DNA from: Microbacterium maritypicum MF109
Lineage (GTDB): Bacteria; Actinomycetota; Actinomycetes; Actinomycetales; Microbacteriaceae
Assembly: GCF_000455825.1 (NCBI RefSeq)
Contig: NZ_ATAO01000239.1
Location: 1-64,000, forward strand
DNA: 64,000 nucleotides
Reading direction: 5' to 3'
The notes beneath the pieces were generated by a model, which saw only the letters and a list, made by a program, of their open reading frames with translations, was not told the DNA's origin and did no database searches. Both the position numbers and the translations under genes were made by a program. The first letter of the stretch is position 1; every line of letters starts with the position of its first letter. Below are positions 5,954 to 13,599 of the stretch, in pieces.

Positions 5954-6508
5954 CTACGGGATCGGCGGGACGCATCGTCCGAGCTGCTCCATCGCTTTGT
6001 ACCAGGTGAGCTGGTGGTAGCTCTGCGAGAGGCGGTCGCCGAGTCCGTCCAGTGACAGCACGTGCACGGCGATCGACTCGCTGTCGTCGAGCGACTGCTC
6101 CGCGATGCGCGTGCATCCGCGAGCGAGGAAGTGATGCACGCGGTTGGTGTGGTTGCCGAAGTTCGCCCACGTCGCACCGAGGTCGATGAGCTCATCTGCC
6201 ACGAAGCCCGTCTCCTCCAGGAGTTCGCGGGCGGCCGCATCCTCCGGAGCCTCGCCAGGCTCTACTCCCCCGCCGATCGTGCCGAGCGCCACGACGCGGG
6301 CACCGTGCCGATATTCCTCCACCAGGATGGCATCGTCGTTCCGGTCGAGGGCGAGGACCGAGATCCAATCGCCGTACTCCAGCACGTAGTACGGGGCTAT
6401 CGAGCGCCCGCTCACGTCTTCGCAGCTGTCCTCATGCAGTCGGATCCATCGGTCGGCGACGAGAGTCTTCCTCGCCACCGTCTTCCAGGGAACCGGCTCC
6501 GCGCTCAT
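5954..6508 (-). CDS. Nudix hydrolase
   Basis: A 184-residue Nudix phosphohydrolase. The Nudix box G-x5-E-x7-REL-x2-E-x2-G is complete at residues 80-102. The preceding YRHGA and IGGG text is typical of the ADP-ribose/NDP-sugar pyrophosphatase group, so a nucleoside diphosphate derivative is the likely substrate; the exact one cannot be read from the sequence. The ATG overlaps the clpX stop by four bases (ATGA), so it is coupled to clpX. Confidence 0.88.
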
Positions 6509-7773
6509 GCGCTCTTGCGCTTGCGCTCCATCACGATCGTCGGCGGTGCGCCTTCATCGACGGCTGCACGGGTGACGATGACCTTGGCGACGTCCTCCGC
6601 CGAGGGGATCTCGAACATGATGGGTCCGAGCACGTCCTCCAGGATCGCCCGGAGTCCACGGGCACCGGTCTTGCGTTCGACGGCCAGGTCGGCGATGGAT
6701 CGCAGCGCATCTTCTTCGAACTCGAGCTGCACGCCGTCGATCTCGAACATGCGCTGGTACTGCTTCACCAGCGCATTGCGCGGCCCGGTGAGGATGTCGA
6801 TCAATGCATCCTGGTCGAGCGGCGACACATTGGTGACGACCGGCAGACGCCCGATGAACTCGGGGATCAGCCCGAACTTGTGCAGGTCTTCCGGGAGCAC
6901 CTCGCTGAACAGGTCGAGGTCCTTGCCCTTGTCGTGCAGCGGGGCACCGAAGCCGATGCCGTGCTTGCCGACGCGCGCCGACACGATGTCTTCGAGACCG
7001 GCGAAGGCCCCGGCGACGATGAACAGCACGTTGGACGTATCGATCTGCAGGAACTCCTGATGCGGGTGCTTGCGACCGCCCTGCGGAGGGACCGAGGCGA
7101 CCGTGCCCTCGATGATCTTCAGGAGGGCCTGCTGCACGCCCTCGCCCGAGACGTCGCGGGTGATCGACGGGTTCTCGGCCTTGCGGGCGATCTTGTCGAC
7201 CTCGTCGATGTAGATGATGCCCTGCTCGGCGCGCTTGACGTCGTAGTCCGCGGCCTGGATGAGCTTGAGGAGGATGTTCTCGACGTCTTCTCCGACGTAG
7301 CCGGCCTCGGTCAGCGCCGTGGCGTCGGCGACCGCGAAGGGGACGTTGAGACGCTTCGCGAGCGTCTGCGCGAGGTAGGTCTTGCCGCAGCCGGTCGGCC
7401 CGATGAGCAGGATGTTGCTCTTGGCGATCTCGACCTCTTCGGCCTTCTGCTCGGCCGTCTGCAGGGTGCCGTGTGCCCGCACCCGCTTGTAGTGGTTGTA
7501 GACGGCGACGGCGAGAGCGCGCTTGGCGGGCTCCTGCCCGACCACGTACTCCTCGAGGAAGGCGAAGATCTCACGCGGCTTCGGGAGCTCGAACTCGGCG
7601 ACCCCGTCTGCGGACGACTCGGCCATCCGCTCTTCGATGATCTCGTTGCACAGCTCGACGCACTCGTCGCAGATGTACACGCCGGGGCCGGCGATGAGCT
7701 GCTGGACCTGCTTCTGACTCTTTCCGCAGAAAGAGCATTTGAACAGGTCAGCGCTTTCACCGATGCGGGCCAT
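6505..7773 (-). CDS. clpX: ATP-dependent Clp protease ATP-binding subunit ClpX
   Basis: AAA+ unfoldase that delivers substrates to ClpP. It has 422 residues: an N-terminal zinc-binding domain with cysteines at 13, 16, 35 and 38, Walker A GPTGCGKT at 125-132, and Walker [10 protein letters not shown]. The start [13 protein letters not shown] is supported by AGGAG upstream (AGGAGGACGCGC before ATG); an in-frame extension of 20 codons upstream is unlikely. A TAGGCT -10-like box lies at about 7813-7818 on the minus strand. clpP1 and clpP2 lie 4.5 kb upstream, separated by the deoxyribose operon. Confidence 0.97.
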
Positions 7774-7873
7774 GCGCGTCCTCCTAGGGGGGATCAGAGA
7801 TCGTTCTTCGAGCCTAACCTCTGCATACGACACCGGGCCGCATTGAGGGCATTCGACATCGGATCGCGAAACG

Positions 7874-7934
7874 ATGAAGGGGCCGGGAGCCTTCAGCTGC
7901 CCGGTCGTGGGCGAAGGCTCCCGACCCCCTTCAT
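7874..7934 (-). terminator. Terminator of the deoC-aldehyde dehydrogenase operon
   Basis: Arms at 7874-7894 and 7913-7934 pair almost perfectly (21 versus 22 nt, one bulge) around an 18-base loop. It lies between the second aldehyde dehydrogenase gene and clpX, so clpX needs its own promoter. Confidence 0.75.
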
Positions 7935-7950
7935 GAGGTCGTCAGAACGG

Positions 7951-8802
7951 TCAGACCATGCTCTTGGTGTGCCAGACGGTCTTCACCTCGGTGAAGGCAC
8001 CGATCCGCTCCGGCGAGGCGACGACGTCTCCCGGGGCGAGCACCCGCTTGAGCGTCTCCGCCGCGGCGATCTGCATGTCGACCCAGTCGAGAGCGCCGGC
8101 TCCGGCCAGGTCGAGAGCGTTCACGTCCTGGTGCGAAGCCAGCCACGGAGCGATCTCCGCGGGCGAACCCGTCAGCACGTTCACGACTCCGCCCGGGACG
8201 TCGCTGGTGGCGAGGACCTCGGCGAGGCTGATGGCCGAGAGCGGGTGCTGCTCGCTCGCGACGACCACAACCGTGTTCCCGGCGACCAGAGCCGGAGCCA
8301 CGACCGACACCAGACCGAGCAGCGCCGAGTCCTGCGGGGCGACGATCGCCACGACACCGGTCGGCTCTGGCACGGAGATGTTGAAGTACGGCCCCGACAC
8401 GGGGTTCGCGTTGCCCGCCACCTGTGCGTACTTGTCGCACCATCCGGCGTACCAGACCCAGAGGTCGATAGCTTCATCGACCTGCGAGGCCGCGGCCGCG
8501 GACGACACGCCCTCCTGAGCCGCGATCTCGTCGATGAACTGCGCGCGACGCCCCTCCAGCACCTCCGCGACGCGGTACAGGACCTGGCCGCGGTTGTAGG
8601 CGGTCGCACCGGACCAGCCCTTGACGGCGGATCGGGCGGCGACCACGGCGTCGCGGGCGTCCTTGCGGGAGCCCTTCGCGGCGTTCGCGAGGAAGGCCCC
8701 CTTCGGCGTGAGCACCTCGTACGTGCGGCCGGACTCGCTCCGCGGGAAGGCCCCGCCGATCGCCAGCTTGTACGTCTTCGGAACAGTCAGTCGCTTGCTC
8801 AT
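7951..8802 (-). CDS. Truncated aldehyde dehydrogenase-family protein (no catalytic half)
   Basis: At 283 residues this protein covers the N-terminal NAD-binding part of an aldehyde dehydrogenase (IGGAFPRSESG start; ATAYNRGQVLYRVAEVLE; GNTVVVVASEQHPLS in place of the usual GNTVVLKPAE) and ends soon after the position of the GSTGVG loop. The catalytic cysteine domain and the LELGG glutamate are absent. It is not an obvious fresh decay product: the reading frame is clean, codon use matches neighbours, and its ATG overlaps the upstream full-length enzyme by four bases. It may be a non-catalytic partner or regulatory subunit of that enzyme; this is inference. Confidence 0.8.
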   Translation of the reverse strand: MSKRLTVPKTYKLAIGGAFPRSESGRTYEVLTPKGAFLANAAKGSRKDARDAVVAARSAVKGWSGATAYNRGQVLYRVAEVLEGRRAQFIDEIAAQEGVSSAAAASQVDEAIDLWVWYAGWCDKYAQVAGNANPVSGPYFNISVPEPTGVVAIVAPQDSALLGLVSVVAPALVAGNTVVVVASEQHPLSAISLAEVLATSDVPGGVVNVLTGSPAEIAPWLASHQDVNALDLAGAGALDWVDMQIAAAETLKRVLAPGDVVASPERIGAFTEVKTVWHTKSMV

Positions 8803-10241
8803 GCTGCGGCTCCCTTGAGGTAGGCGGTGAGACCCTGGCGACCGCCCTCGCGGCCGAATCCGGACTCCTTGTACCCGCCGAACGGGCTCGACGGGTCGAA
8901 GCGGTTGAAGGTGTTGGCCCAGATCACGCCGGCACGCAGGCGGTCAGCCACAGCGAGGATGCGCGATCCCTTGTCGGACCAGATCCCGGCGGAGAGACCG
9001 TAGGGCGTGTTGTTCGCCTTCGCGATCGCCTCGGCGGGCGTGCGGAAGGTGAGCACCGAGAGCACCGGGCCGAAGACCTCGTCGCGGGCGATGCGATGCG
9101 ATGCCTCGACACCGGTGAAGATGGTGGGTGCGAACCAGAAACCCTGCTCCGGAATGGCGCAGTCCGCGGTCCAGCGCTCGGCGCCCTCGGCCTCGCCGAT
9201 GTCGCTGAGCTCGCGGATACGGGCCAGCTGCGCAGCGGAGTTGATCGCACCGATGTCGGTGTTCTTGTCGAGGGGGTCGCCCAGACGCAGGGTCGACAGA
9301 CGCGTCTTGAGCCTGTCGACGACCTCGTCGTGGATCGACTCCTGCACGAGCAGACGACTGCCGGCGCAGCACACGTGACCCTGGTTGAAGAAGATCCCGT
9401 TCACGATGCCTTCGACCGCCTGGTCGATGGGGGCGTCGTCGAAGACGATGTTCGCAGCTTTCCCGCCGAGCTCCAGCGTCAGCTTCTTGTGGGTGCCTGC
9501 CACGGCCCGTGCGATGTCACGGCCGACACCGGTTGAACCGGTGAAGGCGACCTTGTCGACGTCGGGGTGGCGCACGAGGGTGGAACCGGTGGCTCCGGCA
9601 CCCGTCACGATGTTCACGACACCCGCCGGCAGGTCGGCCTGCTGCAGGATCTCCGCGAAGATCAGCGCCGTGAGGGGCGTGGTCTCTGCGGGCTTGAGCA
9701 CGACCGTGTTGCCCGCGGCGAGGGCGGGAGCGATCTTCCACGCCAGCATCAGCAGAGGGAAGTTCCAGGGGATGATCTGACCGGCGACGCCCAGCGCGCG
9801 GGGGTCGGCGCCGAGACCCGCATGGTCGAGCTTGTCCGCCCAGCCCGCGTAGTAGAAGAACCAGGAGGCGACGAGCGGCACGTCGACGTCACGGCTCTCC
9901 TTGATCGGCTTGCCGTTGTCGAGGCTCTCGGCGACGGCGAGCTCGCGAGCGCGCTCCTGCACGAGGCGGGCGATGCGGAAGAGGTACTTCCCACGGTCGC
10001 GACCGCTCATCTTCGACCAGGTCTTCTCGTAGGCACGACGGGCGGCGGCGACCGCGCGGTCGACATCCTCGTCGCTGGCCGAGGCGATCTCGGCGATGTG
10101 CTTCTCCGTCGCCGGCGAGATCGTGTGGAACGGGGTGCCGGAACCGTCGACGAACTCGCCGTCGATGAACAGGCCGTAGCTGTCCTTGAGGTTCAGGATC
10201 GCGGTGGACTCCGGTGCGGGAGCGTATTCCAGAAATGACAT
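8799..10241 (-). CDS. Aldehyde dehydrogenase (probably acetaldehyde-oxidising)
   Basis: An NAD(P)-dependent aldehyde dehydrogenase of 480 residues. The PWNFPLLM cofactor segment lies at about 158-165, the general-base glutamate in LELGGK at about 257, and the catalytic Cys pair in QGHVCCAGSR at 291-292. MSFLEYAP at 10241 is the natural start; an in-frame extension of 28 codons upstream has no support. It sits 13 bp after deoC, so it most likely oxidises the acetaldehyde released by DeoC to acetate. It overlaps the truncated homologue downstream by four bases. Confidence 0.92.
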   Translation of the reverse strand: MSFLEYAPAPESTAILNLKDSYGLFIDGEFVDGSGTPFHTISPATEKHIAEIASASDEDVDRAVAAARRAYEKTWSKMSGRDRGKYLFRIARLVQERARELAVAESLDNGKPIKESRDVDVPLVASWFFYYAGWADKLDHAGLGADPRALGVAGQIIPWNFPLLMLAWKIAPALAAGNTVVLKPAETTPLTALIFAEILQQADLPAGVVNIVTGAGATGSTLVRHPDVDKVAFTGSTGVGRDIARAVAGTHKKLTLELGGKAANIVFDDAPIDQAVEGIVNGIFFNQGHVCCAGSRLLVQESIHDEVVDRLKTRLSTLRLGDPLDKNTDIGAINSAAQLARIRELSDIGEAEGAERWTADCAIPEQGFWFAPTIFTGVEASHRIARDEVFGPVLSVLTFRTPAEAIAKANNTPYGLSAGIWSDKGSRILAVADRLRAGVIWANTFNRFDPSSPFGGYKESGFGREGGRQGLTAYLKGAAA

Positions 10242-10254
10242 GTTCGTCTTCCCG

Positions 10255-11256
10255 TCAGTCGATCGTGACGTAGTCGGGGCCCGAGTAGTGGCCGGAGCTG
10301 AGCTTCTGACGCTGCAGGAGCACATCGTTGAGGAGGCTGGATGCGCCGAACCGGAAGAGGTGCGGCTGCAACCACTCCTCGCCCACCGTCTCGGCGACGG
10401 TCACCAGGTACTTCACCGCGTCCTTCGAGGAGCGGATGCCACCGGCCGGCTTCACGCCGATCTTCTCGCCGGTGCCGCGGTGCCAGTCACGCACGGTCTC
10501 CAGCATGAGAAGAGTCGTCGGAAGCGTCGCGGCGGGCTGCACCTTTCCGGTCGAGGTCTTGATGAAGTCCCCTCCCGCCAGGATGCCCAGCCACGAGGCG
10601 CGCTTGATGTTGTCGTAGGTGTTCAGCTCGCCGGTCTCCAGGATCACCTTGAGCGAGGCGTATGAACCGTCCTCGCGACGGCATGCTTCCTTGACCTGGG
10701 CGATCTGGTCGAACACGAGGCCGTAGCGGCCGGAGAGGAAAGCCCCACGGTCGATGACCATGTCGATCTCGTCGGCTCCGGCGGCGACCGCCTCAGCGGT
10801 GTCGGCGAGCTTGATCGCGAGAGACGAGCGCCCGCTCGGGAACGCCGTGGCCACCGCGGCGACGGAGATCATTCCGTCGTCGGGGTCGCCGTGCAGGCCG
10901 CCGAGCGCGACGACGGCGTCGCCGACCATGTCGCCATAGACGCAGACCGCGGCGACCCGTGGAGTCGAGGGGTCTGCGGCGTCGGGGGTCTTCGCCTTGG
11001 CGACGAGCGAGCGCACCTTGCCAGGGGTGTCCGCACCCTCGAGCGTCGTGAGGTCGATCAGCTTGATGATCGTGTCGAGGGCCCACGCCTTCGAGGTGGT
11101 CTTGATGGAGCGGGTGCCGAGCCCGGCAGCGCGCTGCTCGAGACCGACGGCATCCACACCGGGGAGTCCGTGCAGGAAACGTCGGAGGGTGGCGTCGTCG
11201 GGCTCTCCGCCCAGAACGTCCACCGCCGTCCTGCGGCTGAGTTCTTTGGTCGTCAC
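10255..11256 (-). CDS. deoC: Deoxyribose-phosphate aldolase
   Basis: Class I aldolase splitting 2-deoxyribose-5-phosphate to acetaldehyde and glyceraldehyde-3-phosphate. The Schiff-base lysine is about residue 233 in FIKTSTGK, with KVILETGE before it. At 333 residues it carries an N-terminal extension of about 70 residues over the compact E. coli enzyme, as seen in longer DeoC forms. Its start overlaps the regulator stop by four bases (ATGA). No nucleoside phosphorylase, phosphopentomutase or transporter gene is nearby, so deoxyribose phosphate must be supplied from elsewhere. Confidence 0.95.
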   Translation of the reverse strand: MTTKELSRRTAVDVLGGEPDDATLRRFLHGLPGVDAVGLEQRAAGLGTRSIKTTSKAWALDTIIKLIDLTTLEGADTPGKVRSLVAKAKTPDAADPSTPRVAAVCVYGDMVGDAVVALGGLHGDPDDGMISVAAVATAFPSGRSSLAIKLADTAEAVAAGADEIDMVIDRGAFLSGRYGLVFDQIAQVKEACRREDGSYASLKVILETGELNTYDNIKRASWLGILAGGDFIKTSTGKVQPAATLPTTLLMLETVRDWHRGTGEKIGVKPAGGIRSSKDAVKYLVTVAETVGEEWLQPHLFRFGASSLLNDVLLQRQKLSSGHYSGPDYVTID

Positions 11257-12188
11257 TGTTCCTCCAACAATGCTCGTGCTGTGGTCTCATCGGTCACCAG
11301 AACGCCGCACAGGCCGCTGGTGACCACGGTTCGTGCGATGTCGTGCTTGGCGGGGCCCGCCGTGACGAAGATCGCGCGGGCGGCTCCGCGCAGACGATCG
11401 AGCGAGACGCCGACCGTTCGCGCATCGAGCTGCGAATCGACGATGTTCCCCTCGGCGTCGACGTAGCGGCCGAGAACGTCTCCGACGGCGCCGCGACGCG
11501 CGAGCTCTTCCACGTCCTCAGCGCTGAGGTAGCCGTTCTCGACGTGCGCGGATGAAGCGTCGCACGGCCCTGCGGTGAACAGGAATGCCTGCGCCTCCGC
11601 TGCTTCTTCGAGCACGGCAGCGACGGTGCGGTCGGACTCGATCGCCTGCTTCGTCTCCACACGCTCGAGGATGGCCGGGCTCGGCAGCAGCGAGACCTGG
11701 CCAGACGCGCGCTGAGCGATCGTGACAGCGAGGCCTGCCGCCCCGCCGGAGCGCCGATTCAGGCTCACTCCCCCGTTGAGCTGCACGACCGTCACGCCGT
11801 TCGCCCATCCATCCGGGAGCGCCTCGGCGACGGCGCGGAGCGTGCGCCCCCAGCTCACCCCGAGTGTGCGGGGCACCGGCCGCAGTGCGGTCAGGAAGTC
11901 GGCGGCGGCCTGCGCCACCCGCTCGAGCGTGCCGTCATCGCCTTCCGGGGCCGGCACGACGACGGCGTCCGTCAGTCCGAATCGGTCGACCAGAAGCCGC
12001 TCGAGGCCGAGCCTGCGGGCGCGGGGATGCACGATCTCGATGCGCACGATGCCGCGTTCGCGAGCCTGCGTCAGCAGGCGGCCGACCTTCCAGCGGGAGA
12101 TCTTGAGGAGTCCGCCGATCTCGTCCTGGGTCTTGTCCTCGTCGTAGTACAGCTCGGCGACGCGAACCATGAGCAGATCTTCTTCCAC
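11253..12188 (-). CDS. SorC/DeoR-type sugar-binding transcriptional regulator
   Basis: A 311-residue SorC-family regulator: an N-terminal helix-turn-helix (YYDEDKTQDEIGGLLKIS, about 15-40) followed by a sugar-phosphate-binding isomerase-like domain. The B. subtilis DeoR of the deo operon belongs to this family and responds to deoxyribose-5-phosphate, which fits the coupled deoC downstream. GTG 12188 is chosen because AAGGAGG lies about eight bases before it; ATG 12170 is the alternative. Complex dyads about 45-70 bp upstream are the likely operator. Confidence 0.9.
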   Translation of the reverse strand: MEEDLLMVRVAELYYDEDKTQDEIGGLLKISRWKVGRLLTQARERGIVRIEIVHPRARRLGLERLLVDRFGLTDAVVVPAPEGDDGTLERVAQAAADFLTALRPVPRTLGVSWGRTLRAVAEALPDGWANGVTVVQLNGGVSLNRRSGGAAGLAVTIAQRASGQVSLLPSPAILERVETKQAIESDRTVAAVLEEAAEAQAFLFTAGPCDASSAHVENGYLSAEDVEELARRGAVGDVLGRYVDAEGNIVDSQLDARTVGVSLDRLRGAARAIFVTAGPAKHDIARTVVTSGLCGVLVTDETTARALLEEQ

Positions 12189-12229
12189 GGCATCCTCCTT
12201 CCTCTCCCAGAGTAGGCCCTCATCAGCGT

Positions 12230-12256
12230 TCGCGCATCATGATGCTCATATGCGCA
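12230..12256. promoter_or_regulatory. Nested palindromes upstream of the deo regulator
   Basis: GCATCATGATGC at 12234-12245 is a perfect 12-bp palindrome, set inside an outer pair GCGCAT (12232-12237) and ATGCGC (12250-12255). SorC-type regulators act as tetramers on extended operators, so this is a good candidate for autoregulation of the deo operon. Confidence 0.5.
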
Positions 12257-12293
12257 ATCGAGCGTGGGGGCTCTGCACATCCGCCGGGCACGA

Positions 12294-12328
12294 CGAAGGG
12301 CGCCCGTCGTGATGACGGACGCCCTTCG
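12294..12328 (-). terminator. Terminator downstream of clpP2
   Basis: Arms 12294-12308 and 12314-12328 pair over 15 positions with one mismatch around a five-base loop. It lies 12 bp past the clpP2 stop and separates the clpP pair from the deo operon. Confidence 0.8.
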
Positions 12329-12340
12329 GGATCGATCGGG

Positions 12341-12982
12341 TCAGACGCGCTTGCGCGTCGTGAGGACCTGGTCGACGATGCCGTACTCCAGTGCCTGTGC
12401 GGCGGAGAGGATGTTGTCGCGATCGATGTCGCGGTTCACCTGCTCCGGCGTGCGCTTCGTGTGGCCGGCGAGGGTCTCCTCGAGCCAGGTCCGCATGCGG
12501 AGGATCTCCGCGGCCTGGATCTCGATGTCGGAGGCCTGGCCGTGGCCCGCCTCGCCCATCGCGGGCTGGTGGATCAGCACGCGGGCGTTCGGGAGCGCGA
12601 GGCGCTTGCCCGGCGCGCCGGCCGCGAGCAGCACGGCCGCAGCGGAGGCCGCCTGGCCGAGCACGACGGTCTGGATCTGCGGTGCGACGTACTGCATCGT
12701 GTCGTAGATCGCCGTCATCGCGGTGAACGAACCACCGGGCGAGTTGATGTACATGGTGATGTCGCGCTCGGCATCCTGGCTCTCCAGGACGAGGAGCTGC
12801 GCCATGACATCGTCGGCCGACGCGTCATCGACCTGCACGCCGAGGAAGATCACGCGGTCTTCGAACAGCTTGTTGTACGGGTCCTGGCGCTTGAATCCGT
12901 AGGCGGTGCGCTCCTCGAACTGCGGGAGCACGTAGCGGCTGGAAGGCAGGTCACCGGCTGAGCGGAAGGTGGGTGTGTACAT
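12341..12982 (-). CDS. clpP2: ATP-dependent Clp protease proteolytic subunit ClpP2
   Basis: Serine peptidase subunit of the actinobacterial ClpP1P2 complex. Ser lies in GQAASAAAVLLAAG, a segment characteristic of mycobacterial-type ClpP2 rather than ClpP1, and His in ARVLIHQPAMG; the C-terminus ends DQVLTTRKRV. The 213-residue protein probably carries a short propeptide. It follows clpP1 by 20 bp, so the two form an operon; ClpP1 and ClpP2 of this group work as a mixed tetradecamer with ClpX or ClpC. Confidence 0.95.
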   Translation of the reverse strand: MYTPTFRSAGDLPSSRYVLPQFEERTAYGFKRQDPYNKLFEDRVIFLGVQVDDASADDVMAQLLVLESQDAERDITMYINSPGGSFTAMTAIYDTMQYVAPQIQTVVLGQAASAAAVLLAAGAPGKRLALPNARVLIHQPAMGEAGHGQASDIEIQAAEILRMRTWLEETLAGHTKRTPEQVNRDIDRDNILSAAQALEYGIVDQVLTTRKRV

Positions 12983-13002
12983 GAGCGTCCTTTCGCTTTC
13001 CG

Positions 13003-13599
13003 TTACTCGGTGTCCTGGTCGGTTCCGCCGCCGCCGATGACGTCGGAGGCCGATTCGCGGATGTGGTCGACGAAGCCGTACTCGAGCGCTTCCTCGGCGG
13101 TGAACCAGCGGTCGCGGTCACCATCGGCGTTGATCTGCTCGACCGACTTGCCGGTCTGCGCCGCCGTGATCTCCGCGAGGCGGTTCTTCATCGACATGAT
13201 GAGCTGCGCCTGGGTCTGGATGTCGCTCGACGTGCCGCCGAAGCCGCCGTGCGGCTGGTGCAGCAGCACCCGGGCGTTGGGCGTGATGTAGCGCTTGCCC
13301 TTGGTGCCGGCGGTCAGCAGCAGCTGACCCATCGATGCGGCCATTCCGATGCCGACCGTGACGATGTCGTTCGGCACGAACTGCATCGTGTCGTAGATCG
13401 CCATGCCCGCGGTGATCGAACCGCCGGGCGAGTTCACGTAGAGGTAGATGTCTCGCTCGGAGTCTTCTGCGGCGAGAAGAAGGATCTTCGCGCAGATCTC
13501 GTTCGCGTTCTCGTCGCGCACCTCCGACCCCAGCCAGATGATGCGGTCCTTCAGCAACCTGTCGAAGACGCTCGTTGCGAGGAGGGGTTCTGCAGCCAT
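13003..13599 (-). CDS. clpP1: ATP-dependent Clp protease proteolytic subunit ClpP1
   Basis: A 198-residue ClpP1. Catalytic Ser is in [11 protein letters not shown] and His in [26 protein letters not shown] is the typical C-terminal segment. AGGAGCTGAC before ATG 13599 is a good ribosome-binding site. It is the first gene of the clpP1-clpP2 operon, and a TAGATT -10-like box lies about 30 bp upstream. It lies downstream of trigger factor, a common arrangement of tig-clpP-clpX in bacteria. Confidence 0.96.

Follow-up and report, generated by a model that had tools for sequence, protein, structure and literature searches.

The two adjacent aldehyde dehydrogenase (ALDH) genes described here, a full-length enzyme (FULL) and a short non-catalytic paralogue (HALF), most probably form a split enzyme of the ALDH16 type in a deoxyribose-catabolism operon, with HALF supplying the arm that FULL has lost. 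We put the probability of this reading, for which we infer the complex, its stoichiometry and its substrate, at roughly 0.8. The window, i.e., the whole 64,000-nucleotide stretch of Microbacterium maritypicum MF109 DNA that was analysed, carries the operon on its minus strand in the order regulator, deoC, FULL, and HALF:

7951–8802, minus strand: HALF, non-catalytic ALDH paralogue of 283 aa with an ATG start, corresponding to the C-terminal domain of ALDH16
8799–8802, minus strand: ATGA overlap of the FULL stop codon and the HALF start codon
8799–10241, minus strand: FULL, catalytic aldehyde dehydrogenase of 480 aa with its ATG at 10241, corresponding to the N-terminal, enzymatic part of ALDH16
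10255–11256, minus strand: deoC, deoxyribose-phosphate aldolase of 333 aa with a GTG start
11253–12188, minus strand: SorC/DeoR-type transcriptional regulator with a SorC-type sugar-binding domain

The original prediction had described a full-length ALDH coupled by ATGA to a 283-residue ORF in a deoC operon, and both ORFs and the overlap at 8799–8802 were confirmed; the ORF list also permits a 508-aa reading of FULL from an upstream ATG inside deoC. FULL and HALF both belong to PF00171, and the aldolase belongs to PF01791 and matches TIGR00126 above cut-off. DeoC is long, in that the best solved DERAs cover its residues 57–313 and ∼56 N-terminal residues are unmatched. The operon is flanked by clpP1/clpP2 and clpX in the window (6505–13599) and in four other loci (L031, L081, L082, and L094); clp genes were not found in the flanks of most other loci read. 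A four-base overlap between the FULL stop codon and a possible in-frame HALF start (these starts being themselves predicted) was found in 108 of 160 distinct pairs (68 ATGA, 39 GTGA, and 1 TTGA), so translational coupling looks to be a common feature, and the notion that the ATGA overlap is a trait of near relatives only was dropped. The FULL stop lies −10 to +100 bp from the start of the HALF match, rather than from the HALF start codon, in 169 of the 171 loci with both genes. Many Microbacteriaceae (e.g., loci L098, L110, and L121) carry on FULL a low-complexity extra C-terminal tail of up to ∼60 residues that reaches the HALF start and resembles a linker missing its other half.

The closest solved relative of both proteins by sequence is the bacterial ALDH16 of Loktanella (PDB 6mvr, 6mvs, 6mvt, and 6mvu). 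FULL finds its best PDB match in this protein (6mvr, residues 11–479) with 558 bits, whereas the runner-up among other PDB proteins scores 423; among ALDHs, ALDH16 is thus the one nearest to its catalytic part. HALF matches best in the PDB to residues 500–762 of the same 6mvr chain, and a Foldseek search with the HALF model also ranked Loktanella ALDH16 first (TM 0.89 by query length). In VIA-align, ALDH16 tied with ordinary ALDHs as the match to HALF (Z about 35–36.5); because these ranks tie, the ALDH16 assignment of HALF is based on sequence, tree and Foldseek and not on the VIA-align Z. The genome has 20 PF00171 matches, from which 11 long ones other than FULL and HALF were taken as a comparison set. 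A tree built from 85 sequences groups HALF with the C-terminal domains of six fused proteins in one clade (support 100/100), with support of 89/87 for HALF as a group; a second clade (96/82) unites FULL with the N parts of the fused proteins, and the genome's 11 other ALDHs are separate from both.

These six fused proteins, of 772–798 aa each, are encoded on proteobacterial plasmids. On Sinorhizobium meliloti pSymB, a 794-aa protein that matches Loktanella ALDH16 end to end directly follows deoC and a DeoR-type gene, and fused proteins directly follow deoC also on plasmids of Caballeronia, Agrobacterium, Nitratireductor, Pseudochrobactrum, and Paracoccus. Eight plasmid records were opened in all, six of them with annotated fused neighbourhoods; the other two, L182 (a split actinobacterial pair) and L188, came without annotation. 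The Pseudomonadota proteins have the same two modules as the window system in the same order downstream of deoC, but differ from it in being single polypeptides and in the other genes around deoC and the enzyme. Loktanella ALDH16 is likewise one chain, of 767 residues, whereas FULL and HALF have an ORF each, in the window as in every one of the 119 actinobacterial loci read, and always in the order FULL-HALF. Given the best matches to the two parts of ALDH16 and the fused proteobacterial proteins after deoC, we regard the pair as a split-gene ALDH16; the comparison of split and fused forms covers Actinomycetota and Pseudomonadota, plus two probably misbinned contigs.

The anatomy of the two proteins is complementary, and the following elements, all on the minus strand, carry the comparison:

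7966–7992, minus strand: HALF C-terminal strand, residues 271–279, with the motif E-x-K-T-V-W-H
8362–8424, minus strand: HALF oligomerisation hairpin, residues 127–147 (model strands E131–134 and E139–147)
9369–9371, minus strand: FULL Cys291, putative catalytic cysteine, in the motif GHVCCAG
9471–9473, minus strand: FULL Glu257, putative general base, in the motif LELGGK
9789–9830, minus strand: FULL residues 138–151, site of the missing oligomerisation hairpin that other ALDHs have here

FULL resembles the classical ALDH tetramers (ALDH2 and ALDH1) in being a PF00171 protein with the usual motifs. Its putative catalytic Cys and Glu, a pair that the active, NAD-dependent ALDH16 enzymes of bacteria also have, are present in all 161 distinct FULL sequences, where by ALDH2 numbering we take the first of the two cysteines in GHVCCAG to be the catalytic one. 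Arg464, presumably the counterpart of ALDH2 Arg475, is also present in 161 of 161. The two elements expected in the catalytic subunit of a classical homotetramer, the hairpin and the C-terminal strand, are both missing from FULL. The W-to-PWN spacing that reports on the hairpin is 21–24 in 30 of 31 aligned and 160 of 161 distinct FULLs (the exception, L164, has 32 residues owing to a different insert) and 21 in the N parts of all six fused proteins; the corresponding values are 34 in 31 of 31 HALFs, 31 in the C parts of all six fused proteins, and 30–35 in all 11 other ALDHs. The predicted FULL model likewise has no hairpin at this site and ends in a helix and a two-residue strand, without the C-terminal strand (pLDDT is <50 at residues 1–6, 261–265, 287–293, and 438–463). 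In eight FULL tails the chain stops shortly beyond the final helix, and a strand seemingly present in most of the 11 other ALDHs is missing.

HALF lacks both the catalytic Cys and the catalytic Glu that FULL has, as originally predicted from the sequence, and 129 of 179 extracted HALFs contain no cysteine whatever. It had also been described as keeping the cofactor-binding half of the enzyme, of which the fold has stood and the binding residues have not: the Rossmann fold is kept in the predicted model (pLDDT 90), but N169, K192, S246, G250, and E268, which by ALDH2 numbering we take to serve catalysis or cofactor contact, have been replaced in every one of the 31 aligned HALFs. Binding of the cofactor by HALF was judged unlikely with these contact positions lost. 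Nor does HALF correspond to the front half of an ALDH. Because the alignment of its model spans ALDH2 residues 20–498 with the catalytic domain skipped, and because its tail matches the ALDH C-terminal strand, the catalytic domain appears to have been cut from the middle; as modelled, HALF is an ALDH minus its internal catalytic domain, and neither a simple truncation nor an ALDH front half. Glu occupies residue 272, the first position of the E-x-K-T-V-W-H motif, in 163 of 165 distinct HALFs, with Asp in the other two, and the positions at which the structural alignment ends suggest that Glu272 is the counterpart of ALDH2 Glu487. HALF thus has the features of the extra C-terminal domain of ALDH16, a Rossmann domain with a beta-flap and no active site.

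We propose the following mechanism. FULL would provide the NAD site and the catalytic Cys and Glu, without the beta-hairpin and C-terminal strand that ordinary ALDHs use for the dimer grip, and HALF would contribute, besides its Rossmann domain, precisely the two arm elements that FULL lacks. From this complementary anatomy, HALF would be expected to dock on FULL as the partner subunit does in a classical ALDH dimer. Two FULL-HALF units would then pair into a FULL2-HALF2 complex with the shape of a classical tetramer and two active sites. This stoichiometry has a parallel in a review in which two fused ALDH16 chains are said to mimic the classical ALDH tetramer. The arm argument draws on predicted structures, on what the ALDH16 crystal paper is reported to have found, and on a review. 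DeoC yields acetaldehyde and glyceraldehyde 3-phosphate (PMC6365646), so acetaldehyde is the most likely substrate as judged from deoC adjacency alone, and the FULL-HALF enzyme would oxidise DeoC-released acetaldehyde to acetate.

The pair is widely conserved, and the two genes travel together. Among 199 genomes of the family, 113 carry HALF; a search at 1e-20 had matched 150 genomes, of which 37 were dropped by hand as ordinary-ALDH-like (best match 9.5e-21 to 2.7e-29). FULL is carried by 112 of the same genomes (cut-off 1e-190), with both genes in 112, HALF only in one (G022, in which FULL runs off the contig end), and FULL only in none. The 112 count presence rather than per-genome adjacency, and in one of these genomes (G146) the two genes lie on different contigs. 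More broadly, HALF was found in 167 of 296 genomes of the class (1e-60) and in 84 of 396 of the phylum at E below 1e-90, two of 86 phylum matches (about 1e-42) having been left out by hand. HALF identity is 64–92% within Microbacteriaceae and at least 49% across the Actinomycetota loci read. Loci were matched at >45% identity for HALF and >60% for FULL over most of the length, and the collections overlap in genomes, so that distinct-protein counts are used where relevant. Because the loci in the locus, spacing, deoC, residue, and overlap counts were picked for holding HALF (and FULL for standing beside it), these counts are no measure of how often FULL stands alone; the family co-occurrence count does measure this, for one family.

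Some genomes hold several copies: G791 has three HALFs, G694 has two, and G153 has two FULL-HALF pairs (on contigs C76, which is locus L039, and C147). Within the genus group to which the window belongs, three genomes (G164, G740, and G815) had no HALF match at 1e-60, which indicates that the operon has been lost or gained within the genus. The 14 genomes of family f6 among the phylum entries listed gave no HALF match at 1e-40, a first look having yielded 19–51 candidates each. Two contigs labelled as Acidobacteria and Fimbriimonadaceae MAGs (L097 and L117) hold the operon, with HALFs 78 and 72% identical to that of the window, respectively, and are probably misbinned actinobacterial contigs.

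Conservation of the pair beside deoC across actinobacteria, one of the checks attached to the original prediction, was borne out: of 120 loci, 110 have deoC immediately upstream of FULL, and another five are cut short by the end of the contig. In the remaining five, deoC is on the same strand and was not scored adjacent, although in one of them (L157) the FULL match is broken in two and deoC in fact adjoins its first piece.

The loss from HALF of the examined catalytic positions and of most of the catalytic domain would also be seen if it were a decaying or neutral ALDH duplicate that is open by chance, an explanation to which we give next to no weight. Its stand-alone ORF is conserved over the family and phylum samples given above, with a mean column identity of 75% in 16 sequences. 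Comparison of eight near relatives (28 pairs) gave dN/dS values of 0.058–0.247 for HALF and 0.047–0.184 for FULL, which are rough because synonymous distances are as large as 0.61–1.12 and 0.47–0.75, respectively. Over all loci, the medians for 7158 pairs with a HALF dS of 0.05–0.8 were 0.38 for HALF and 0.31 for FULL, and we read these higher values as the result of saturated synonymous sites. The short form is therefore well below the ratio of 1 expected under neutral evolution, and a full-length second enzyme in the place of HALF, which had been named as grounds for rejecting the prediction, was found in none of 119 loci. On these sequence comparisons HALF is a real gene under purifying selection and not a decaying copy; its conservation, this selection and its co-occurrence with FULL favour the reading of HALF as a non-catalytic subunit.

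What such a conserved protein does could be conceived in other ways. HALF might act as a separate regulator or chaperone, for instance by binding FULL only during folding or by sensing nucleotides, and its retained Rossmann fold as well as the separation of the genes in every actinobacterial locus, which would permit a transient role, fit this idea. We nevertheless consider it unlikely, as the known cofactor-contact positions are gone from HALF, both arm elements are in HALF and none in FULL, which fits a permanent, dimer-like contact, and the fused homologues join the two parts in one chain. Still less probable, in our estimation, is the channelling role once suggested, in which HALF would be a scaffold tying FULL to DeoC for direct transfer of acetaldehyde. 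The only evidence for such a scaffold is the position of deoC directly upstream of FULL in nearly all loci and of all six fused proteins in their annotated neighbourhoods, but this adjacency is expected from a common pathway, no feature of HALF noted in these comparisons points to DeoC contact, and an arm of the ALDH16 type explains the retained parts of HALF without DeoC contact. The established channelling aldolase-dehydrogenase, DmpG/DmpF, is a different system from FULL/HALF, which is PF00171 with a PF01791 aldolase; the DmpG/DmpF type is defined by a CoA-acylating dehydrogenase of the DmpF family rather than by PF00171.

The split ALDH16 arrangement that we favour can be set against its better-known relatives, for which background on ALDHs, ALDH16, and DERA was drawn from four sources (PMC8160307, PMC10650815, PMC9007349, and PMC6365646). 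Classical ALDHs have arm and catalytic domain in every subunit, whereas the FULL/HALF system divides them between two proteins. Human ALDH16A1 belongs to the same ALDH family by the naming in these reviews and was compared with FULL by description only; the reviews describe it as a pseudoenzyme without catalytic residues, unlike FULL with its conserved Cys and Glu.

The pair had been put forward as a new arrangement for the family, and its novelty is only partial because both modules are already known in fused form in ALDH16 (PDB 6mvr and kin), although the two-gene split is unusual. A review already describes how ALDH16 is laid out in domains and the view that its C-terminal domain is dead. 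In the open-licence literature we came across no description of a split ALDH16 or of an ALDH16 next to deoC, in a search that for some lists took in top entries only and had the primary ALDH16 structure paper outside its scope, and which is weak evidence of absence.

In a review table, the substrate of human ALDH16A1 is given as unknown. The constant deoC neighbourhood in two phyla leads us to propose acetaldehyde from deoxyribose phosphate as the substrate of bacterial ALDH16. The natural split also makes the ALDH16 C-terminal domain a separate protein that can be omitted, titrated, or mutated, so that its role is more directly testable than in the fused enzyme. Furthermore, the interface affected in humans by the ALDH2*2 variant seems to have a counterpart here that is divided over two genes, FULL and HALF, a correspondence that we infer. 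A broader picture, which we offer tentatively and think less likely to hold as a whole, is that an obligate FULL2-HALF2 enzyme oxidises the acetaldehyde from deoxyribose across Actinomycetota, with a pseudo-subunit donating the arm (including the counterpart of the ALDH2*2 residue) to a FULL that would be unable to oligomerise alone. DERA-coupled acetaldehyde oxidation would, on this broader picture, be the old function of the ALDH16 family as a whole, which Pseudomonadota carry out with a fused protein and Actinomycetota with a split one, and which the human pseudoenzyme has lost.
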